A stretch of 64,000 bases of DNA, taken from positions 28,635 to 92,634 of the forward strand of contig CALDZP010000073.1 in NCBI GenBank assembly GCA_937944105.1, written 5' to 3'. The DNA is from an uncultured Ignavibacteria bacterium (GTDB lineage: Bacteria; Bacteroidota; Ignavibacteria; Ch128b). Each line of letters starts with the position of its first letter. Within the stretch, counting starts at the first letter, position 1. Made by a program: the position numbers and the translations under genes. Positions 22,733 through 36,904 of this stretch are shown here, piece by piece. Under the pieces are notes generated by a model. The model did no database searches. It was given only the letters and a program-made list of their open reading frames with translations, and was not told the origin of the DNA.

Positions 22733-24700
22733 ATGTCAAACGCGCTTTCAAAAAAGCTGATATTAATCAGCGTAACCATTCTTTCTTTCATTGTAATTTA
22801 CCTTGGGTGTAAATCATCCAAAGATGCTGTAAGTGGAGATGTCGCACAAGCAGTTTATGTAGCTCCTGGAAGCTATGATGAATTTTATCTTTTTACTTCT
22901 GGTGGATTTAATGGTCAAGTTGGTGTCTATGGATTACCATCAGGAAGACATTTTAAGACAATTTCTGTATTCTCACAAAATCCCGAAACCGGTTATGGAT
23001 ACAGTGAAGAGACAAAACCAATGTTAATGACTTCATATGGATTTATTCCTTGGGATGATTCTCATCACCCGGTATTTTCCATGACCGACGGTGTTCCTGA
23101 TGGTAGATTTTTATTTATTAATGCTAATAATACGCCGAGAGTTGCTAAAATTGATTTAAGAACTTTTGAAACAACTGAAATCGTTGAAATTCCAAATTCA
23201 GCAGGCAATCATGCTTCTCCATTCGTTACTGAAAATACTGAGTATATTGTTGCATCAACAAGATTTAGTGTTCCTATTCCCAATGCCGATGTTCCTATAT
23301 CGACTTATAAAGAAAACTTTAAAGGTACTATCTCCTTTATAGCTTTTGATAATAAAACCGAAAGAATGAATTTAGCATTTCAAATCATAGTACCTGGTTA
23401 TAATTATGATTTAGCTCGTGCTGGAAAGGGTCCATCTAAAGACTGGGCATTTTTTACTTCTTATAATACCGAGCAAGCAAATACATTACTCGAAATAGAA
23501 GCATCAAAAAATGATAAAGACTTTATTGCAGCGGTTAATTGGAGACTGGCAGAAAAATATGTGAAAGAAGGCAAAGCAAAAAAAATGAGTGCTGAGTATT
23601 ATCATAATTATTATGACGAGAAAAAACATAAAGCTACAAATGAAGTAAAAAAAGATGTTTTAGTTCTCGATCCTAAGGATTGCCCTGGAATGATTTATTA
23701 TTTACCAACACCCAAATCTCCACATGGTGTTGATGTTGATCCCACAGGCGAATATATCGTTGCAGGGGGGAAGCTTGCAACAGTTATACCAGTTCATTCT
23801 TTCTCCAAAATGTTAAAAGCTATCGAAGAAAAGCAATTTGATGGTGAAGTTGATGGAATACCAATTTTAAAATATGATGCTATTGTCGCTGGTGAAGTTA
23901 AAAACCCAGGTCTTGGGCCACTTCATACTGAATTTGATGGAAAGGGCTATGCTTATACATCGCACTTTGTATCTTCGGAGATTGTAAAATGGAAACTTGG
24001 AACATGGGAAATTGTTGATCGGATACCAGCTTATTATTCAATTGGTCACCTTTGTATTCCAGGAGGTGATAGCAAAAAGCCATGGGGTAAGTATGTTGTC
24101 GCTTTGAATAAAATTACCAAAGATAGATATCTACCTACTGGACCAGAACTTACTCAATCTGCTCAATTGATTGATATTTCCGGTGATAAAATGAAATTGT
24201 TACTCGACTTTCCAACTGTCGGCGAACCTCACTATGCCCAGGCTATTCCGTCAGAGATTTTAATGAAAAATAGTGCTAGAATTTATCGTATTGAAGATAA
24301 TCAACACCCATACGTAACAAAGAGCGAAAAAGATGCAAAAGTTGTAAGAGAAGGAAATAATGTCCATGTTTATATGAGTGCAATTAGAAGTCATTTTGCT
24401 CCTGATAACATTGAAGGGATTAAAGTTGGTGATAATGTTTATTTCCATGTAACAAATCTTGAACAAGATTGGGATATACCACACGGTTTTACAATAAAAG
24501 GCTTGAACAACGCAGAAATTTTAATAATGCCAGGACAAACAAGGACCATTCTATGGCAACCAAAGAAACCTGGAATTTATCCATTTTATTGTACAGATTT
24601 TTGTTCTGCATTACATCAAGAAATGCAAGGTTATGTTAGAGTTTCGCCTGCTAATTCCACTGTAGCTTTAAGTTATTACACAGGAACACCGAAAAAATAG
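22733..24700 (+). CDS. nosZ: Nitrous-oxide reductase, Sec-dependent clade II type
   Basis: VAPGSYDEFYLFTSGGFNGQVGVYGLPSGRHFKTI; C-terminal CuA motif FYCTDFCSALHQEMQGYVRV; Sec/lipoprotein-like leader, no Tat RR. Confidence 0.95.
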   Translation: MSNALSKKLILISVTILSFIVIYLGCKSSKDAVSGDVAQAVYVAPGSYDEFYLFTSGGFNGQVGVYGLPSGRHFKTISVFSQNPETGYGYSEETKPMLMTSYGFIPWDDSHHPVFSMTDGVPDGRFLFINANNTPRVAKIDLRTFETTEIVEIPNSAGNHASPFVTENTEYIVASTRFSVPIPNADVPISTYKENFKGTISFIAFDNKTERMNLAFQIIVPGYNYDLARAGKGPSKDWAFFTSYNTEQANTLLEIEASKNDKDFIAAVNWRLAEKYVKEGKAKKMSAEYYHNYYDEKKHKATNEVKKDVLVLDPKDCPGMIYYLPTPKSPHGVDVDPTGEYIVAGGKLATVIPVHSFSKMLKAIEEKQFDGEVDGIPILKYDAIVAGEVKNPGLGPLHTEFDGKGYAYTSHFVSSEIVKWKLGTWEIVDRIPAYYSIGHLCIPGGDSKKPWGKYVVALNKITKDRYLPTGPELTQSAQLIDISGDKMKLLLDFPTVGEPHYAQAIPSEILMKNSARIYRIEDNQHPYVTKSEKDAKVVREGNNVHVYMSAIRSHFAPDNIEGIKVGDNVYFHVTNLEQDWDIPHGFTIKGLNNAEILIMPGQTRTILWQPKKPGIYPFYCTDFCSALHQEMQGYVRVSPANSTVALSYYTGTPKK

Positions 24701-25628: not shown

Positions 25629-26099
25629 ATGAATTATTCTACTTTAAAAATTTTCAAAATTCAAAATTTATTTTTAATGATTGCTCTAACCTTGATCCTT
25701 GCTTCATGCAATCCAAAACCTGAACCAATAAATTATGGTCAAGATGTATGCGATTTATGCAAGATGAATATTACCGATAACAAATTTGCTGCAGAGATTG
25801 TGACGGCCAAGAATAAAATTTATAAGTTCGATTCAATTGAATGTTTGTTCAATTTTAAGAATAGCGTTCTCGATAAAAGTGAAGAAATTCACTCTGAGTG
25901 GGTAAATGATTTTTCAAATCCCGGGGAATTAATTGAATTAAATAAAGCTCATTTTCTTTTAAGCGAACATTTTAAAAGTCCCATGGGCTTAAATGTTTTA
26001 AGTTTTTCATCGCATGAAAAGCTACTTGAGATAAAAAATGAACATGGTGGTAAGGAGTTAAGCTATGATGAAGTAAAAAAGTTAGCCACTGAGGAATGA
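25629..26099 (+). CDS. nosL: NosL family copper-chaperone lipoprotein
   Basis: Lipobox LASC; YGQDVCDLCKMNITDNKFAAEIVT...KFDSIECLFNF. Confidence 0.93.
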   Translation: MNYSTLKIFKIQNLFLMIALTLILASCNPKPEPINYGQDVCDLCKMNITDNKFAAEIVTAKNKIYKFDSIECLFNFKNSVLDKSEEIHSEWVNDFSNPGELIELNKAHFLLSEHFKSPMGLNVLSFSSHEKLLEIKNEHGGKELSYDEVKKLATEE

Positions 26100-26148: not shown

Positions 26149-27399
26149 ATGAAAAGTATCCATCTAATAATTATAAATTTATTCTTTTCATTTTTACTTC
26201 AAGCAAGTCAAACATATGTAATCACTCCAGAATTTAATCTTAGCAATGTAATAGAGAAGACTTCTGAAGGGGCAATTTTAATTTTAAAACCGGGCATTTA
26301 TAAAGTAAACAATATTAAGATTTCAAAGAGAATTACAATAATAGGTGAAGGTTATCCTACCATAGAAGGGAATAACAAAGATGAAGTTTTTACTATTACA
26401 GCAAATAATGTGATAATAAAAGGGCTCGTCATAAAAAATGCTGGTGTTAGTTTTCTTCAGGAAAATGCTGCTATAAGATTAGAACAAGTATCTGGCTGTC
26501 GGATTGAAGGGAATATACTCAACAATAATTTTTTTGGAATTTACATTTCAAAATCCTTTAACTGCGTTATTAAAAACAATAAAATAGAAGCTTTTAATCA
26601 AAATGAAACAAATTCAGGTAATGGAATTCATCTATGGTATAGCAAAGCTATAACTATTGATAGTAATGAAATCATTGGTCATCGTGATGGGATTTATTTT
26701 GAATTCGTAAAAAATTCACTTGTCAAGAATAATATTAGTAAAAAAAATCTTCGCTATGGTCTTCATTTTATGTTTTCAGACAGTTGTACATATGAAAAAA
26801 ATATTTTTGAAAATAATGGGGCGGGTGTTGCTGTGATGTATACTCGTTATGTAACAATGAGAGAAAATCAATTTATCAACAACTGGGGTGCTGCTTCTTT
26901 TGGTGTTCTTCTTAAAGATTTGAGCGATTGCTTAATTGAAAAAAACTCTTTCAGAAAAAATACAAACGGATTATATATTGAAGGTTGTAATCGAATTACT
27001 GTTAATCAAAATGATTTTATTGAAAACGGATGGGCAGTGAAATTAATGGCAAATTCAATGGATAACTTTTTCTTTGATAATAATTTTATTGCTAACTCTT
27101 TCGATGTTATGACAAATAGCAGAAATAATTTTAATCAATTTAAAGGAAATTATTGGGATAAATATACTGGTTATGATTTGAATAAAGATGGATTTGGAGA
27201 TATTGCTTATAGACCAGTTAATATGTTTTCTGTCTTGGTTGAAAAGCATCAAGCATCAATGATTTTACTTCACAGTCTTTTTATTGAAATTTTGAATATT
27301 GCAGAAAGTATACTCCCTTCACTTACACCAATTAACTTATTAGATAATAAACCAAGAATAAAAAAAATTCAATATGATCAAACTTTCAAACATTATTAA
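26149..27399 (+). CDS. nosD: NosD, nitrous oxidase accessory protein (right-handed beta-helix)
   Basis: Repeated N-rich beta-helix repeats (IEGNILNNNFFGIYISKS...), C-terminal NYWDKYTGYDLNKDGFGDIAYRP. Confidence 0.93.
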   Translation: MKSIHLIIINLFFSFLLQASQTYVITPEFNLSNVIEKTSEGAILILKPGIYKVNNIKISKRITIIGEGYPTIEGNNKDEVFTITANNVIIKGLVIKNAGVSFLQENAAIRLEQVSGCRIEGNILNNNFFGIYISKSFNCVIKNNKIEAFNQNETNSGNGIHLWYSKAITIDSNEIIGHRDGIYFEFVKNSLVKNNISKKNLRYGLHFMFSDSCTYEKNIFENNGAGVAVMYTRYVTMRENQFINNWGAASFGVLLKDLSDCLIEKNSFRKNTNGLYIEGCNRITVNQNDFIENGWAVKLMANSMDNFFFDNNFIANSFDVMTNSRNNFNQFKGNYWDKYTGYDLNKDGFGDIAYRPVNMFSVLVEKHQASMILLHSLFIEILNIAESILPSLTPINLLDNKPRIKKIQYDQTFKHY

Positions 27400-28090
27400 A
27401 AAATATGGCAAGCTTGAAGTACTAAAAGGAATTGATGCTGAAATAGCAAAAGGAAAAGTAACTGCTATTGTCGGTCCAAATGGGTCGGGTAAAACAACTA
27501 TTATTAAAATAATCCTTGGGCTCGTTAAAGCTGACTATGGAAAGGTTTTCATTAATAACTCACCAATTAATGGCGGTTTTGAATATAGAAAATTAATTGG
27601 TTATATGCCTCAAGTTGCAAGTTATCCTGAAAACTTAACTGTTGCGGAAGTATTGAATATGATTAAAGATCTAAGAAATAGGTTCGATCATCCAGAAGAA
27701 AAATTATTGAAATTATTCGAACTCACTGGTGAATTAACCAAACCAATTAGAGCACTTTCAGGTGGAAATAAACAGAAATTAAGTGCTGTTCTTTCATTAA
27801 TGTTCGAACCTGAAATATTGATTTTTGATGAACCTACCGCAGGTTTAGATCCGGTTGTAAGTAATCGTTTTAAAGAAATTGTTTCTTCAGAAAGAAAGAA
27901 AGGTAAAACAATTATTTTGACTTCTCATATAATGAGCGAAGTACAGGAACTCGCAGATGAAATTATTTTCATATTGGACGGGAAAATTCATTATCACGGA
28001 TCAATTCTAAATCTATTACTTGATAAAGGTGAAGTAAATCTGGAAAAAGCAGTTGCAAAAATATTAGAAGAAAGAGCTATTTGGAATTGA
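27374..28090 (+). CDS. nosF: ABC transporter ATP-binding protein NosF
   Basis: Walker A GPNGSGKTT, LSGGNKQKLS signature, Walker B EILIFDEPTAGLDP; 26-nt overlap with nosD. Confidence 0.92.
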   Translation: MIKLSNIIKKYGKLEVLKGIDAEIAKGKVTAIVGPNGSGKTTIIKIILGLVKADYGKVFINNSPINGGFEYRKLIGYMPQVASYPENLTVAEVLNMIKDLRNRFDHPEEKLLKLFELTGELTKPIRALSGGNKQKLSAVLSLMFEPEILIFDEPTAGLDPVVSNRFKEIVSSERKKGKTIILTSHIMSEVQELADEIIFILDGKIHYHGSILNLLLDKGEVNLEKAVAKILEERAIWN

Positions 28091-28302: not shown

Positions 28303-29115
28303 ATGATAACTAAAGAGATGAAAGTTTCAGAAGTTCTGAAAAAATATCCAGATACACTTGAGGTGTTTATTGAGACTAGTCAACATTTCAGAAAACTTGA
28401 AAATAAATTTTTACGGAAAGCATTAGCAAGCCGAGTAACTGTTGAACAAGCCGCTAAAATTGCTGGCGTTGATTTAAATGAGTTACTATTTAGATTAAAT
28501 AAGAAAATTAATCCTGATTTTATCTTAGTTGATAAGGAGAAAGACGAAAAACCTATGATACACATAAAACCTGTTTGGTTGGAAAATATTTCTAAAGATA
28601 AAATTGTTGAACTCGATGTTAGACCAATTATTAATTCTGGTAAAGATCCATTTCTTGATATCATGAATAAAATAAAAGAACTAAAAGAAGATGAAATTCT
28701 TTTAATAATAAATTCATTTGAACCTATTCCACTATACACTGTTTTAGGAAATAAAGGTTTTGAACATTTTACCGAGAAGGAGCTCGATAAATTCAAAGTT
28801 TATTTTTTCAAAAAACAAACAGAACAAACGCAAGCGAATTCTTTATCAAATTCATCGATCGAAAATTTTCAAAGTGAGTTTAAAAACTTAGTTGAGCTTG
28901 ATGTGAGGGACCTCCCTCCTCCAGAACCGATGATTAAAATTCTTGAATCACTTTCAAGGGTAGATGAAAATACAGTTTTAGTGGTTCACCATCATCGCGA
29001 ACCTTTGATGTTGTATCCTAAGCTTGAAGAAAGAGGATATACAGCTATCTCAAACAAAATTGACGAAAATTATTATAAAGTTCTTATTTACAAAAAGAAG
29101 AGCAAAAATTTATGA
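28303..29115 (+). CDS. DUF1858 + two DUF2249-like domains protein
   Basis: N-term MKVSEVLKKYPDTLEVFI (DUF1858-like); two repeats VELDVRPI... and VELDVRDLPPPEPMIKIL. Confidence 0.8.
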   Translation: MITKEMKVSEVLKKYPDTLEVFIETSQHFRKLENKFLRKALASRVTVEQAAKIAGVDLNELLFRLNKKINPDFILVDKEKDEKPMIHIKPVWLENISKDKIVELDVRPIINSGKDPFLDIMNKIKELKEDEILLIINSFEPIPLYTVLGNKGFEHFTEKELDKFKVYFFKKQTEQTQANSLSNSSIENFQSEFKNLVELDVRDLPPPEPMIKILESLSRVDENTVLVVHHHREPLMLYPKLEERGYTAISNKIDENYYKVLIYKKKSKNL

Positions 29116-30377
29116 TTCAATCTGAGCAAGTTGCAGGAATCTATTCTCCTCCTTTTAAAATTGTTTCAAAATACTTTATTGGATCAATAATTTCTTTTGT
29201 CGTATTTAATCTGTTGCTTGTTTTAAACTATAATTCAATCAATGGTCATCATTTCCAACCAAAAATATTATCATTAAATCACATCGCTACTTTAGGTTTT
29301 GTAACAATGGTAATTTTCGGGGCAATGTTTCAATTGGTTCCTGTAGTAATGGAAGTAAAATTATTCAGTCCATTGCTTGCAGAGATACAATTCTGGATTT
29401 ACACATCTGGTGTCGTACTTCTTGTTTATAAATTCTGGTATTTTGATTCTTTTATAAGTTTTCTTTTACCTGGTTTAATTTTAAGTCTTGCAATTTTACT
29501 ATTCTCGATTAATATAATTTTCTCAATGATAAAAGTTAAAGTCTGGAATATAACCGGCAGTTACCTAATTGCGGCTATCTTCTGGCTTTTGATTACAGCT
29601 CTTGCAGGGTATCTCTTAACTAAAAATCTTGATAAACCATTTATAAAAATAAATCATTTACAATATTTGAATCTTCATGCAATAACTGCTTTTGTGGGTT
29701 GGGTGGGAATGGTAATCATGGGAGTAAGCTTTAAATTAATTCCTATGTTTACTCTTTCACACGGATATAAAATGACTTTTGCAAAAATTTCTCTCCTGAT
29801 TACAAATGCAGGACTCCTTGGTATAAACTGGATAATGCACTATTCAGATACTGGTTTTTATAATCTTGTTTTTGGAACACTTATTTTTATTGGCGTGATT
29901 CTATACCTGATTCAAATTTTTATCATATTCAAAAAAAGAATTCGAAAAAAATTAGATATTGGGCTCAAATTCTCTGCATTTGCATTTATTATTTTCGGAA
30001 TTGTTTCAACTTTGAATTTTTCCTTTCTCTTTTTTGATTATGAATCAATTGTAAATTTAACTCTCGTTTACGGCATAATAGTCATTTACGGTTTTTTCGG
30101 GACTTTAATTCTGGGTCAAATGTACAAAATCGTTCCTTTTCTTGTCTGGTATCATAAATACAGTAGCAAAGTCGGAATAGAAATTGTTCCGATGCTAAAA
30201 GATATGTTTAATGAAAAATTAGCTGAGTATCAACTTTATTTATTGTTAGGTGGTATTGTTATCAGTTCATCAGGATTATTAATCAACAAAGGTATAGTGG
30301 TTTTAATTGGATTTATTTTGCTCTTAACAAACTCAATAATCTTTACAATTAATATGATCAAAATTTTCAGGAGTTAG
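29112..30377 (+). CDS. Polytopic membrane protein, NnrS/heme-copper-oxidase subunit I-like
   Basis: About 12 hydrophobic segments; LNHIATLGFVTMVIFGAMFQLVPVV and LNLHAITAFVGWVGMVIMGVSFKLIPMF. Confidence 0.65.
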   Translation: MIQSEQVAGIYSPPFKIVSKYFIGSIISFVVFNLLLVLNYNSINGHHFQPKILSLNHIATLGFVTMVIFGAMFQLVPVVMEVKLFSPLLAEIQFWIYTSGVVLLVYKFWYFDSFISFLLPGLILSLAILLFSINIIFSMIKVKVWNITGSYLIAAIFWLLITALAGYLLTKNLDKPFIKINHLQYLNLHAITAFVGWVGMVIMGVSFKLIPMFTLSHGYKMTFAKISLLITNAGLLGINWIMHYSDTGFYNLVFGTLIFIGVILYLIQIFIIFKKRIRKKLDIGLKFSAFAFIIFGIVSTLNFSFLFFDYESIVNLTLVYGIIVIYGFFGTLILGQMYKIVPFLVWYHKYSSKVGIEIVPMLKDMFNEKLAEYQLYLLLGGIVISSSGLLINKGIVVLIGFILLLTNSIIFTINMIKIFRS

Positions 30378-30380
30378 ATC

Positions 30381-30689
30381 ATGGTAATTAAAGAAATTAA
30401 AAGAGAAGATGTTCTTGAAACATTGAAAGCAGTCATCGATCCAGAAATCGGGCTAAATATTGTTGATCTTGGTTTAGTTTATGATGTTCAAATTTCGGAT
30501 GAAGTGATATTAATAACAATGACTCTAACAACACCGGGGTGTCCAATGCATGGAAGCATTGTCAATTGGGTAGAGAGGATTATTTCAATGTCTTTTCCGA
30601 ATAAAATTGTTGATGTTCAATTGGTGTGGGAACCAAGATGGACACCTGAAAAAATGTCAGAAGAAGCAAAAAAATTTTTAGGAATATAA
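30381..30689 (+). CDS. MIP18/DUF59 family metal-sulfur cluster assembly factor
   Basis: VIDPEIGLNIVDLGLVYDV...TLTTPGCPMHGSI...LVWEPRWTPEKMSEEAKKFLG. Confidence 0.9.
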   Translation: MVIKEIKREDVLETLKAVIDPEIGLNIVDLGLVYDVQISDEVILITMTLTTPGCPMHGSIVNWVERIISMSFPNKIVDVQLVWEPRWTPEKMSEEAKKFLGI

Positions 30690-30691
30690 AT

Positions 30692-31147
30692 ATGTTCAGT
30701 ACTGTTAGATACTTTATTAAAACAAGTGTGATTTTTTTGGCTATTGGAATCATTACGGGCTTATATATGGCAATTTCAAAATATGTCTTTAAATCGGGAT
30801 ATACACAAGAACTAATTTCTGCCCATACACATTTAATTCTTGTTGGTTCAGTAATGATGATGATAATGGGAGTAGCATTATGGTTTTTTCCACGAGCAGA
30901 AAAAGAAGATAGAAGATATAATCCAACTTTAATTTTAATTTCTTACTGGATTATCACAATTGGAACATCATTTCGTTTTGTCTTTCAAGTCGTTGCGAAC
31001 TTTGTTTATGCCGAATGGATTCATTATTTAATAGCTTTATCTTCTTTTCTTCAAGTTATAGCAATGATTTTATTTTTCTATTCAATGTGGGGGAGAATTA
31101 GACCTGTGGGTAGTCACATTCGTGAAGCCAAAGGTGAAAAATTTTAA
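30692..31147 (+). CDS. Short heme-copper-oxidase subunit I-like membrane protein
   Basis: ELISAHTHLILVGSVMMMIMGVALWFFPR; four TM-like segments. Confidence 0.65.
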   Translation: MFSTVRYFIKTSVIFLAIGIITGLYMAISKYVFKSGYTQELISAHTHLILVGSVMMMIMGVALWFFPRAEKEDRRYNPTLILISYWIITIGTSFRFVFQVVANFVYAEWIHYLIALSSFLQVIAMILFFYSMWGRIRPVGSHIREAKGEKF

Positions 31148-31165
31148 TAAACAAATGGAGGTTAT

Positions 31166-31576
31166 ATGTCCAAACTTTTTAATTACTTTGAAGAAAGAAA
31201 AGAATTATCTTATTCTTTAATAAGAATATTTCTTGGCTTTGCTCTCTTCATTAGAGGTTTAATTTTTGTGAGTGATCCTGCCACTTTAACTCGAATTGCA
31301 GGAAGTGAACAAAATTTTTATTTGTTTGCTTATGTAGCAATTGGTCATCTAATCGGAGGTTTGTTACTTGGAGTTGGTTATTTCACACGCCTTGCTTCAT
31401 TAATTCAAATTCCAATTTTAATTGGTGCCGTCTTTGTAATACATCTTAAACAGGGTCTACTAAGTTCAGGTCAATCGCTTGAAATTTCAGTGCTTGTTTT
31501 ATTTCTTTTGGTAATCTTTTTCCTTTTTGGAAGCGGAAAACTTAGTCTCGAGAAATATTTGTCTAAAAATAACTAA
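31166..31576 (+). CDS. DoxX family membrane protein
   Basis: SYSLIRIFLGFALFIRGLIFV...GHLIGGLLLGVGYFTRLASLIQIPILIGAVF. Confidence 0.8.
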   Translation: MSKLFNYFEERKELSYSLIRIFLGFALFIRGLIFVSDPATLTRIAGSEQNFYLFAYVAIGHLIGGLLLGVGYFTRLASLIQIPILIGAVFVIHLKQGLLSSGQSLEISVLVLFLLVIFFLFGSGKLSLEKYLSKNN

Positions 31577-31584
31577 AAACAAAG

Positions 31585-31965
31585 ATGAGTTTATCTCGAA
31601 AAGTTTTTATTCCATTTTTAATATTAATTTACTTTGCAGTCATTAACGGTAATCTCATTTCGTTAGCTGAATACTTAATTCGATATGACTATATCGTAAA
31701 AAATTTATGTGTACAGAAAAATAATATAAAAAATACATGTAAAGGTTCCTGTCACTTAAAACAGAATCTTGAAAAAGTAAACGAATCAAATGGTAGTAAT
31801 CCAGAATCAATTGAATTGAAATTGTTATCGTCAATCGATATTCATTATAATCAGAACATTTCTTTATTTAATTACGACAAACACAATTGCAAGCGTATTG
31901 CTTTACAAAATCAGAGAAAAATAAATCAATTTGAAATAGAACCTGAAACACAACCTCCGGAGTAA
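31585..31965 (+). CDS. Small membrane-anchored Cys-motif protein
   Basis: N-terminal TM/signal, then LCVQKNNIKNTCKGSCHLKQ (C-x9-C-x3-CH). Confidence 0.7.
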   Translation: MSLSRKVFIPFLILIYFAVINGNLISLAEYLIRYDYIVKNLCVQKNNIKNTCKGSCHLKQNLEKVNESNGSNPESIELKLLSSIDIHYNQNISLFNYDKHNCKRIALQNQRKINQFEIEPETQPPE

Positions 31966-32027
31966 ATATCTATTTATAACCATAATTCAAAAACATTAAA
32001 CATAATAAAAAACTACGGAGGTTTAAT

Positions 32028-33893
32028 ATGAGAAAAATTGTGTCTTTACTTATCTCATTTTTCATAATTTTTTATAATCACTTATTCTCACAAAATTATG
32101 ACTCACTTAAAACATTTGAATTACCTTCAATCGAGATTATTTCCAGAAGAGGAATTCCTTTTGTTGAAATTCATAAGTATGGAACTGATTATAACAGTAA
32201 TTTATTAAATCAAAATGGCTATACTCTGATCAGACGTGGTATCAATTTTACACAGGATTTATATGTTGAGGGTTTCAAAAAAGGTGACATTAAAGTGTTA
32301 ATTGATGGTGAACATTATCATAATGCTTGTCCAAATCGTATGGATGCTCCTGCAACACGTGTTAACATAATTGATATGGAATCTGTTGAATTAACAAAAT
32401 CGTCTTCTCTAATTGGCACAGGTGTTTACGGTAAAGTCGAATATCATAGATCAAGCTTAAGTGATGTCTTCAAATTTAAATCATTGGTTAACGGTTCAGC
32501 AGGTTATAAGAAAGATTTTGATTTTGCCGTTGCTGGTGAAGGCTTAAATTCATCGATTACTTTTAGAATTTCTCAAGGTATACCTTACCTTAATGGTGAA
32601 GGAAAATCTTTTAAGGAATTATACAATTATAAAGATAACGGTAAATTTTCTTATTACAATACTTCATTCAGACATAAATTAAATAATTTTGATTTAGAAA
32701 TTGGCAGCAATTTTACATTTGCTAATAACATATCATTTCCATACTTACAAATGGATGAGAAACTAAGCAAATCATATAACATTTATTTGAAGTATAAAAC
32801 AAATAAAATTTATTTGAATTATACTGACCATCTTATGAATAACGATTTGCGTAACTCAAGTATGTTTATGGAAACTCGTGCAAAAAATTTAACAATTGGA
32901 CTCAATGGAAAATTTTACGAAGTATATTATCGTAACTGGAATGCTGATAATGTAATTCGAATGATGTCAAATTCTATTTACAATAAACTTATGCCTAATG
33001 TTGATCAAATTGGTCTTAATCTTTCTGAAAATTTCTCTTTTGAATTTGTTAAGGTATTTTTGAAGGGTGGATTGCAATACCTAACATTCAAAGATGAAGC
33101 GAGAAAAACTTTTTATGAAGAATTGTATTCAAATGTTAGTTCAAAAAGATATTTTATTTCATCAGGAGTAACTTTTGTTTACTCACCAAAAATTCATTCA
33201 AACTTAACGGGTAAAATAATCACAGAATTTTCATCAGATTCACCGGATCCTGAACTTCTTTTTATTGCTGTGAAAAGAATGGGAAATAATCCTGACTGGA
33301 GTGGTAATCCCAATTTAAGACAACCAGTAAAATTCGGAGCTCGAGGAACTTTAGATTACAAAAACATTAGTTTTGAAATCTTTACAAATTATATTTTAAA
33401 CTATATTGATGTTGTTAAAAAAATGAAAACAAATAAACCTGTAATGACTTATGAAAATGTCAACTCCCTGTTAATGGGTTCCAATTTACATTTAAGATAC
33501 AGATTCTTTGAAACAAACATATCATATTTATGGGGCGAAAATACAAAAACAAAAAAACCACTTGCTGAAATCGCTCCACTTTCTATGAACTCGAGTTTGT
33601 ATCTTCCTGTGTTTTCTAATTTTGACATTATAGTTTATCATCAATACGAAAATGCACAAAAGAGAATCAACAAAGATTTGAATGAATTTTCTTCTGCTAC
33701 CTGGAATACAATTGGACTCGGCTTAAATTATACTTATAAAGATTTTAATTTCGATTTAAGGATAAACAATTTATTAAATCACAATTACTATCGTTTCCTA
33801 TCATTTTCTAGGAATCCTTTCAGCACTAATAGACCAGTCTACGATCCAGGTAGGAACGTAACTCTTACAATTTTCATGAGCAAAATTTTCTAA
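32028..33893 (+). CDS. TonB-dependent receptor, putative copper receptor (OprC/NosA-like)
   Basis: Plug-like region VLIDGEHYHNACPNRMDAPATRVNIIDMESVELTKSSSLIGTGVYG; C101-x3-M105 and H268-x-M270; C-terminal barrel. Confidence 0.8.
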   Translation: MRKIVSLLISFFIIFYNHLFSQNYDSLKTFELPSIEIISRRGIPFVEIHKYGTDYNSNLLNQNGYTLIRRGINFTQDLYVEGFKKGDIKVLIDGEHYHNACPNRMDAPATRVNIIDMESVELTKSSSLIGTGVYGKVEYHRSSLSDVFKFKSLVNGSAGYKKDFDFAVAGEGLNSSITFRISQGIPYLNGEGKSFKELYNYKDNGKFSYYNTSFRHKLNNFDLEIGSNFTFANNISFPYLQMDEKLSKSYNIYLKYKTNKIYLNYTDHLMNNDLRNSSMFMETRAKNLTIGLNGKFYEVYYRNWNADNVIRMMSNSIYNKLMPNVDQIGLNLSENFSFEFVKVFLKGGLQYLTFKDEARKTFYEELYSNVSSKRYFISSGVTFVYSPKIHSNLTGKIITEFSSDSPDPELLFIAVKRMGNNPDWSGNPNLRQPVKFGARGTLDYKNISFEIFTNYILNYIDVVKKMKTNKPVMTYENVNSLLMGSNLHLRYRFFETNISYLWGENTKTKKPLAEIAPLSMNSSLYLPVFSNFDIIVYHQYENAQKRINKDLNEFSSATWNTIGLGLNYTYKDFNFDLRINNLLNHNYYRFLSFSRNPFSTNRPVYDPGRNVTLTIFMSKIF

Positions 33894-33992: not shown

Positions 33993-34781
33993 ATGCAATA
34001 CATAAAAAAAATTTTGAAGTTTGAATTCAACAACGTAATTCGAAGCCGATGGATATTTTTTTTCTTTGCATTCTTCTTTGTTGTCTCTTATGCACTATTT
34101 ACCTTCGAATCAAATATTCAAAAATCTTTAATTAGCTTATTTAACTTAATTATTTATTTAATCCCCTTGATTAGCTTAATATTTGGAACAATGTATTTTT
34201 ATAATTCGAAAGAATACATTGAAATGATGCTTTGCCAACCCATTCCAAGAAAATCACTATATATAGGAATATTTTTAGGCACAGCTCTTCCATTAATTAT
34301 AAGTTTAATATCGGGAATTTTAGTCCCATTCATTTTATTTAGTAATATAAACGAAGGTTTTAATTTTATTCTGCTTCTTGTTTTAATCAGTATTTTACTA
34401 ACTCTAATTTCAATTGCAATTGCTTTTCTAATTTCTACTATGATCAATGATAAAGTTAGAGGATTAAGTGTTGCTATTTTTTTCTGGCTCGTAATGGCAA
34501 TTGCATTTGATGGAATTTTGCTTTTGTTGATGTTTCTTTTAAGTGATTACCCTGTTGAAAAATTTTTGCTTTTTATCACTTTAATCAATCCTATCAATCT
34601 ATCTCGAACATTGTTTGTATTACATTTCGATATCTCCGCATTGATGGGAATAACTGGTGCAATATTTAAAAAATTTTATGGAACTACTTTGGGCATTATT
34701 GTTTCGGTGACTTCATTAATTTTTTGGATTATAATTCCATTCTGGATTGGACTAAAAAATTTTATGAGAAAAGATTTCTAA
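33993..34781 (+). CDS. nosY: ABC-2 type permease, NosY-like
   Basis: IKKILKFEFNNVIRSRWIFFFFAFFFVVSYALF...IEMMLCQPIPRKSLYIGIFLGTALPLIISL; six TM. Confidence 0.85.
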   Translation: MQYIKKILKFEFNNVIRSRWIFFFFAFFFVVSYALFTFESNIQKSLISLFNLIIYLIPLISLIFGTMYFYNSKEYIEMMLCQPIPRKSLYIGIFLGTALPLIISLISGILVPFILFSNINEGFNFILLLVLISILLTLISIAIAFLISTMINDKVRGLSVAIFFWLVMAIAFDGILLLLMFLLSDYPVEKFLLFITLINPINLSRTLFVLHFDISALMGITGAIFKKFYGTTLGIIVSVTSLIFWIIIPFWIGLKNFMRKDF

Positions 34782-35023: not shown

Positions 35024-36268
35024 ATGAAATTTGCTTATTTGGATACTTTTTCTGGACTTAGTGGTGATATGATGATTGGTGCCTTAATTTCAGCGGGGAT
35101 GCCATTTGAATATTTACAAGATGAGCTTAAAAAATTAAATATCAAAGGCTATGAATTAAGTCATAAAATTATACAAAAGCAATCAATTACTGCAATTAAA
35201 TTTGATGTTAAAATACTTGAAGAAAATAACTCTGGTGAATTGATTGATTCTAAAGAAAAGCATCAACATATAAAGCAAAGACTTCATAACCATGAAAATC
35301 ACCACTCACATCAAGGTAGAACTTACTCAGCAATAATTGAATTAATTGAAAAGAGTGAACTTTCACCATATGTAAAATCAACTTCACAAAAAATTTTCAA
35401 AACCATCGGCGAAGCAGAAGCAAAAATTCATAATGTTAAACTTGAGAATGTTCATTTTCATGAAGTTGGAGCTATTGATTCAATTATCGATATTGTAAGC
35501 ACTGCAATTGGGTTAGAATACTTTGGTATCAAAGCTGTTTATTCTTCTATCGTCTCACTTGGAAAAGGTTTTGTAGATACCCAACATGGAAAAATGCCAG
35601 TCCCAGCTCCTGCAACAATAGAAATCCTCAAAGATTATCCCGTAACTTTCCTTGATGTTCAATTTGAACTTACCACACCAACTGGCGCTGCCATAATTAA
35701 AACTTTATCTCAAGGATTACTAGATTATCAAAAAGTAAGATTCACACACATCGGTTATGGTGCTGGAAGTAAAAATATTCCTCAAATACCAAATTTATTC
35801 AGACTAATGATTGGTGAATTTTTAGAAAATTATTCAATAGATGATTCGTACATCATTGAAACCAACATCGACGATATGAATCCTGAATTTTATCCTTTTG
35901 TTATTGAAAAGTTGCTAAATGCTGGAGCTCACGATGCCTACTTGATTCCGGTAATTATGAAAAAAGGTAGACCTGGTATTGTTTTATCAACTCTTTGTGA
36001 ATCAAATAAAATAGATGAATTATTAAAAATAATTTATAACGAGACAACAACTCTTGGCGTTCGATTGATTAAAATTGATCGAAGAAAATTAAATCGTGAT
36101 TATGAAATTATACAAACAAAATTTGGTCAGATGAAAGTTAAAGTCGTAAAAAGTGAAAGTGGGAAAAAATATCTTCCCGAGTTTGAGGAATGTAAAAAAA
36201 TTGCTCTTGAGAAAAATATCCCGATAGCAGATATTTATAATGAAATATTAAAATTAAACATTGTTTGA
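35024..36268 (+). CDS. larC: LarC family nickel-pincer cofactor biosynthesis protein
   Basis: MKFAYLDTFSGLSGDMMIGALISAG...HFHEVGAIDSIIDIV...ETNIDDMNPEFYPFVIEKLLNAGAHDAYLIPVIMKKGRPGI. Confidence 0.93.
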   Translation: MKFAYLDTFSGLSGDMMIGALISAGMPFEYLQDELKKLNIKGYELSHKIIQKQSITAIKFDVKILEENNSGELIDSKEKHQHIKQRLHNHENHHSHQGRTYSAIIELIEKSELSPYVKSTSQKIFKTIGEAEAKIHNVKLENVHFHEVGAIDSIIDIVSTAIGLEYFGIKAVYSSIVSLGKGFVDTQHGKMPVPAPATIEILKDYPVTFLDVQFELTTPTGAAIIKTLSQGLLDYQKVRFTHIGYGAGSKNIPQIPNLFRLMIGEFLENYSIDDSYIIETNIDDMNPEFYPFVIEKLLNAGAHDAYLIPVIMKKGRPGIVLSTLCESNKIDELLKIIYNETTTLGVRLIKIDRRKLNRDYEIIQTKFGQMKVKVVKSESGKKYLPEFEECKKIALEKNIPIADIYNEILKLNIV

Positions 36269-36904
36269 TTGAAATTGATAGTTCAAATTAATCTTGTTTT
36301 CTGCTTTCTTTTATTTTTAAGGGTCATTGATATGTCAGCTCAACAATTTTATATAAATCAAGAAAAATCATCATTACAAAAGGCAACATTCGGCGGTGGT
36401 TGTTTCTGGTGTACCGAAGCCATATTTAAACAAATTAATGGTGTCGTTGAAACAGTTGTAGGTTATGCAGGTGGTCATGTTGAAAATCCAACTTACGAAC
36501 AAGTATGTAGCGACAGTACGGGACATGCTGAAGTTTGTCAGGTCACATTTAATCCCGATAAAATTTCTTATGAAGAGTTACTTGAAATATTCTTCAAAAC
36601 ACATGATCCAACAAGTCTAAATAGACAGGGAGCTGATATTGGAACACAATACCGCTCGGTAATTTTCTATCATGATGAAACTCAAAAAAGATTAGCAACA
36701 GATTATATCAAAAAACTTGAAAAGTCCGGAATTTTTACGCAAAAAATAGTTACAACAATAGAGCCACTAAAAAATTTTTATAGAGCTGAAGAATATCACC
36801 AAAATTATTTTGAAAAGAATCCTTATAGTTCATACTGCATTTTCGTTGTCAGTCCAAAAGTTGAAAAATTCAAAAAGATCTTTAATAACAAATTAAAAAG
36901 ATAA
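36269..36904 (+). CDS. msrA: Peptide-methionine (S)-S-oxide reductase MsrA
   Basis: ATFGGGCFWCTEAIFKQINGVVETVVGYAGGHVENPTYEQVCSDSTGHAE. Confidence 0.96.
   Translation: MKLIVQINLVFCFLLFLRVIDMSAQQFYINQEKSSLQKATFGGGCFWCTEAIFKQINGVVETVVGYAGGHVENPTYEQVCSDSTGHAEVCQVTFNPDKISYEELLEIFFKTHDPTSLNRQGADIGTQYRSVIFYHDETQKRLATDYIKKLEKSGIFTQKIVTTIEPLKNFYRAEEYHQNYFEKNPYSSYCIFVVSPKVEKFKKIFNNKLKR

Follow-up and report, generated by a model that had tools for sequence, protein, structure and literature searches.

A predicted OprC/NosA-type copper receptor in a clade II nos cluster of an Ignavibacteria bacterium, preceded by a CutF/CruR-like leader gene

Only a few outer-membrane proteins are known to import ionic copper, and it has been disputed for decades whether NosA serves nitrous-oxide reductase. 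The reference system is OprC of Pseudomonas aeruginosa, together with NosA of P. stutzeri (TIGR01778; PDB 6fok and 6z8q; PMC8610252). C143, M147, H323 and M325 are the copper ligands of OprC, and M286, M341 and M343 of its methionine track hold Ag(I) in the crystal (PMC8610252). The link between NosA and NosZ is contested in P. stutzeri, where one strain showed no NosZ phenotype when nosA was knocked out, and OprC also occurs in non-denitrifiers (PMC8610252).

Two small proteins are the closest described counterparts of the leader reported below. CutF of Rhodobacter capsulatus has a Sec signal, a CxxxC motif and a proline tail, and a stem covers the Shine-Dalgarno of the next gene (PMC8456105, PMC9973294); CutF-like genes are on record for Bacteroidota, and also at positions upstream of TonB and nosZ/nosR genes (PMC9973294). 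CruR of Bordetella pertussis precedes a TonB receptor that is repressed by copper (PMC9426467). Here, we analysed a 64,000-nt stretch (the window) from an uncultured Ignavibacteria bacterium, which probably carries an OprC/NosA-type importer in a clade II nos operon, controlled by a CutF/CruR-like leader; transport, ribosome arrest, copper sensing, its polarity and delivery to NosZ are what we infer from comparison.

The receptor and its putative copper site

The receptor gene (32028..33893, plus strand) starts with ATG and is an intact open reading frame of 621 aa, whose product is a predicted importer of ionic copper. The first-pass annotation had read an OprC/NosA-type copper signature in it, and the residues are exactly as it gave them: C101-PNR-M105 (CPNRM, 32328..32342, plus strand) as the plug half of the putative site and H268-L-M270 (HLM, 32829..32837, plus strand) as the barrel half, with a single copy of each motif in the protein and a C-to-H spacing of 167 residues against 180 in OprC. 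When the single receptor sequence was searched against the PDB, OprC was the sole match (best E 9.9e-6), with NACPNRMDAP aligned over GACPNRMDAP and YTDHLMNN over YADHIMDN of OprC. A profile of 36 relatives matched OprC at E 1.2e-65 over positions 40-620, far ahead of PhuR (7.6e-31) and ZnuD (2.1e-12). In the profile alignment, C101, M105, H268 and M270 all fell on the OprC ligands C143, M147, H323 and M325. Further, M242 (32751..32753, plus strand), M279 and M281 (codons M279-F-M281, 32862..32870, plus strand), which the annotation did not mention, aligned with M286, M341 and M343, the three methionine-track positions compared. The receptor had one NCBIfam match, TIGR01778 'TonB-dependent copper receptor' (E 1.9e-20), and its 73.2 bits lie far below the equivalog cut-off of 472.45 bits, which by sequence makes it an outlying branch of the OprC/NosA type. 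With the window receptor as tblastn query, the plasmids searched for OprC references gave no match, while a less divergent nos-linked relative as query found OprC references.

We then modelled the receptor with AlphaFold2 from a 36-row alignment (pLDDT 89.2, pTM 0.85). The model has the plug and 22-strand barrel of a TonB-dependent receptor and superposes best on OprC: the first 28 fold matches in the PDB were all OprC chains (TM 0.71-0.76), at 16% identity in the fold alignment, and the zinc receptor ZnuD was also among the matches. H268 and M270 lie in strand 259-271 of the model, and C101 and M105 in a plug loop preceding helix 108-111; superposition on OprC, together with the alignment, suggests that the four residues would come close together.

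Strong matches to the receptor occurred in four of the 61 genomes around that of the window, namely its own, one of the same genus (G002, 62% identity) and two others (G006 and G016, 38%). A phylum-wide draw gave matches at E <1e-20 in 14 of 397 genomes, and a scan of named genomes gave 14 loci, in Ignavibacterium, Ignavibacteriaceae, Chlorobiota, Bacteroidota, Calditrichaeota and Latescibacterota assemblies. The annotation had named loss of the four residues in orthologues as grounds for refutation; they were kept in all 27 full-length close relatives, among which M242 and M281 were likewise invariant, and in 36 of 36 sequences of a wider alignment with distant OprC-type receptors. Generic TonB receptors of the same class, aligned in the same way, had none of the four. 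The copper-signature reading is thus upheld by sequence, profile and fold comparison. A compact group of TonB receptors (f31 genomes) scored 180-220 bits against the OprC profile.

The nos cluster and linkage to NosZ across the phylum

The placement of the receptor in a nos locus was also borne out. On the plus strand we found nosZ, encoding a Sec-dependent clade II nitrous-oxide reductase (22733..24700; TIGR04246, 964 bits), the copper chaperone gene nosL (25629..26099; PF05573), the maturation genes nosD (from 26149) and nosF (from 27374; together 26149..28090), and a nosY-type ABC permease gene directly after the receptor (33993..34781). Codirectional genes encode a cytochrome c (from 22226), a cupin (from 24718) and a membrane protein found again beside nosZ in other genomes (from 25037). 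The receptor gene lies inside the cluster, between nosF and nosY, and the gene order is the same in G002.

Seven extra genes (28303-31576), the leader and the receptor separate nosF from nosY. The inserted set includes codirectional genes for a DUF1858-DUF2249 protein (from 28303), a COX1/NnrS-like protein (from 29112), a MIP18/SufT-like protein (from 30381), a small COX1-like protein (from 30692) and a DoxX protein (31166-31576; PF07681), and is kept in G002. The DoxX protein has a weak NCBIfam match, far below cut-off, to HvfX, which acts in the maturation of copper-binding RiPPs. Just past nosY, 35024-36904 encodes a LarC-type nickel insertion protein (PF01969) and MsrA.

Across the 397 genomes, an OprC-type receptor (called at >225 bits) was present in 105, NosZ in 131 and both in 66 (odds ratio 5.9, Fisher p 1.5e-13, uncorrected for shared ancestry). 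Pairs within 15 kb numbered 16, against 0.56 expected under random placement in 3.7-Mb genomes, again uncorrected for shared ancestry. A receptor with both motifs was found in 12 of 101 fetched nos regions, a set partly hand-picked and weighted to the window's class, and these belonged to several distinct branches. On a tree of the sampled set, the nos-linked state needed 9 changes (by a quick method, on a biased sample); therefore, nos linkage arose or was lost several times. Given that the NosA-NosZ link is disputed in P. stutzeri, these data offer comparative support from another phylum, extending to clade II reducers, which matter as N2O sinks. Two broader readings failed: several TonB receptors near nosZ are without both motifs, so that not every such receptor is of the OprC type, and the motif is unsupported as a marker of NosZ supply, the window's own subclade being mostly not nos-linked.

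An OprC-type importer might instead serve general copper needs, for example those of haem-copper oxidases, its nos position reflecting the gathering of genes for copper-limited or anaerobic growth. This is the strongest of the alternatives, and we consider it possible, though clearly less probable than supply of NosZ in this genome. In the window's subclade, only its own genome, G002 and G222 have nos-linked receptors, NosZ is present in just 6 of the 14 genomes that strongly match the receptor, and the occurrence of OprC in non-denitrifiers and the P. stutzeri knockout point the same way (PMC8610252). However, the window receptor is the only OprC-type receptor of its genome and keeps its place between nosF and nosY in G002, and several separate OprC-type branches stand beside nosZ far above chance. 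The receptor thus likely supplies NosZ in the window's genome; since its subclade is mostly not nos-linked, this is probably not its general role. The annotation's term for it, a 'dedicated' importer, agrees with the position inside the nos cluster, but goes further than the subclade bears out.

In other OprC-type branches, a lipoprotein-like gene whose product carries MDMG..H and MPSMGHGS motifs lies just before the receptor (L047, L049, L120, L148, L154, L159, L195, L202, L206, L207 and L209). The two products scanned (L148 and L049) matched YtkA-like PF13115. The MDMG..H protein may act as the importer's copper partner in the periplasm.

The leader gene and its pairing with the receptor start

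Upstream of the receptor, on the same strand and across a gap of 62 nt, lies a gene for a 126-aa product (31585..31965, plus strand) that the first-pass annotation did not include. Its product has an N-terminus that is hydrophobic as judged by eye, C42, C52-K-G-S-C56 and a terminal QPPE. It had no match in NCBIfam, or in Pfam searched to E 1; the DUF2946/CruR family (PF11162) was rejected, as there was no Pfam match and CxGxC and PPE replace CXXC and RAPP. Relatives of the leader stand directly upstream of most receptors in the subclade. In 17 aligned leaders, the only invariant residues were C42, C52, G54, C56 and P124, and most ended in PPP[KRE]. The G002 row of this alignment ended at PPPK, whereas the G002 frame (L039 14255-14743) continues for ~37 codons past it and overlaps the receptor gene start, unlike the window leader, which stops one codon past Pro-Pro. 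When 3307 open reading frames of 80-180 aa from about 129 loci were screened, 12 combined CxGxC with a PPP among their last 14 residues, each of them directly upstream of an OprC-type receptor. In loci fetched later, a Cys-rich, PP-ended frame heads the operon of most OprC-type receptors, and leaders with a RAPP end precede OprC genes in Klebsiella and Burkholderia records, the Klebsiella one being annotated as DUF2946.

By the published rules for CutF-like proteins (PMC9973294), the leader is shorter than 150 aa, has PP in its last 15 residues and has a codirectional gene within 1000 nt; it also has the Cys metal motif (CxxxC) and a stem over the next Shine-Dalgarno. Since the CutF-like group was already known to reach Bacteroidota and to occur upstream of TonB and nosZ/nosR genes, the leader belongs to a described kind. 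It is probably a copper-sensing regulator of the receptor.

The terminal Pro-Pro codons (31954-31959) are held in the arm AACCTCCG (31952..31959, plus strand), which is perfectly complementary to the receptor's Shine-Dalgarno, CGGAGGTT (32016..32023, plus strand). In G002, the corresponding pairing is longer and has a different sequence, and in six further loci (L072, L086, L080, L090, L075 and L053) the last codons of the leader or the bases after its stop pair with the receptor start region. The folding energy of the window junction alone was weak (z -1.1); therefore, we used a comparative duplex test. Over 18 leader-receptor pairs, the mean duplex energy was -12.9 kcal/mol. Other parts of those leaders gave -6.8 (p 4e-6), shuffled tails -7.8 (Fisher p 3e-14) and tails swapped between loci -8.6 (p 1.3e-4); these p values are optimistic, as some of the pairs are related. 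For 133 ordinary neighbouring gene pairs, the shuffle test gave -6.74 versus -6.72 (combined p 0.60). Pairing was weak or absent in L073, L088, L089 and L048. It was weaker in distant Bacteroidota leaders, where several targets are without a Shine-Dalgarno and the wrong leader frame was taken in L205, so the case does not rest mainly on this extension. We hold it an even question whether Pro-Pro arrest codons that double as the importer's anti-Shine-Dalgarno are a recurrent device of OprC-type loci in the Ignavibacteria/Bacteroidota group.

Alternatively, the product of this gene could be exported and act as a copper chaperone for the receptor or NosZ, instead of working as a regulatory nascent peptide; the protein is Cys-rich and apparently exported, and CutF itself was first discussed as a chaperone (PMC8456105). 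We regard this as unlikely, given that the invariant residues are only cysteines, one glycine and the terminal proline, that PPP stands at the extreme end regardless of leader length, and that the pairing of the tail codons with the receptor start region is a constraint at the RNA level.

Proposed mechanism and comparison with known systems

In the proposed import route, M242, M279 and M281 would guide ionic copper to the site formed by C101/M105 in the plug and H268/M270 in the barrel, TonB action would release it into the periplasm, and NosL and NosDFY would load NosZ with it. Uptake of a different substrate, be it zinc, a chelated metal or a metallophore, by a receptor that retains OprC-like residues could account for the low identity to OprC and for the match to ZnuD, whose metal site is in almost the same position (PMC8610252). 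This is very improbable, as neither the Cys, His and two Met ligands nor the track methionines vary, OprC is a far better match than ZnuD in sequence as well as in fold, and the gene context is that of a copper enzyme.

For control of the copper importer by the leader, we propose that pairing of the Pro-Pro codons with the importer's Shine-Dalgarno would keep the importer start closed, that a ribosome halted at Pro-Pro would hold this Shine-Dalgarno open, and that the halt would change when copper binds the CxGxC motif of the nascent peptide. The ribosome may be halted, and the importer ON, at low copper, as for CruR, which is the sensible polarity because the receptor is an importer. The leader makes this copper control testable with a simple reporter, and, if true, arrest codons doubling as an anti-Shine-Dalgarno would be nascent-peptide control in a compact form.

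Compared with known systems, the receptor shares with OprC the 22-strand TonB fold, the CxxxM plug motif, the HxM barrel motif and key methionine-track positions, and OprC-type genes, like that of the window, are headed by a Cys/PP leader. It differs from OprC/NosA in being about 100 residues shorter, in occurring outside Proteobacteria, in lying inside the nos cluster and in having a leader that is not of the DUF2946 family. With CutF, the leader has in common its small size, CxxxC, a proline tail of PPP plus a charged residue and a stem covering the Shine-Dalgarno of the next gene (PMC8456105, PMC9973294), and its hydrophobic N-terminus suggests that it may likewise be of the exported type. 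However, CutF precedes a multicopper oxidase, while the window leader precedes an importer, and in the window the Pro-Pro codons themselves make up the anti-Shine-Dalgarno, as against an intergenic stem-loop as described for cutFO. With CruR (DUF2946), which lies ahead of bfrG/crtA in B. pertussis (PMC9426467, PMC12914433), it has in common a Cys motif, a terminal Pro-Pro and a place immediately before a gene for a copper TonB receptor. CruR carries CXXC and RAPP where window-type leaders carry CxGxC and PPP, and it works by Rho termination across a 162-nt spacer, unlike the mechanism proposed here; in CrtA receptors neither a Cys nor a Met is conserved, in contrast to the window receptor.
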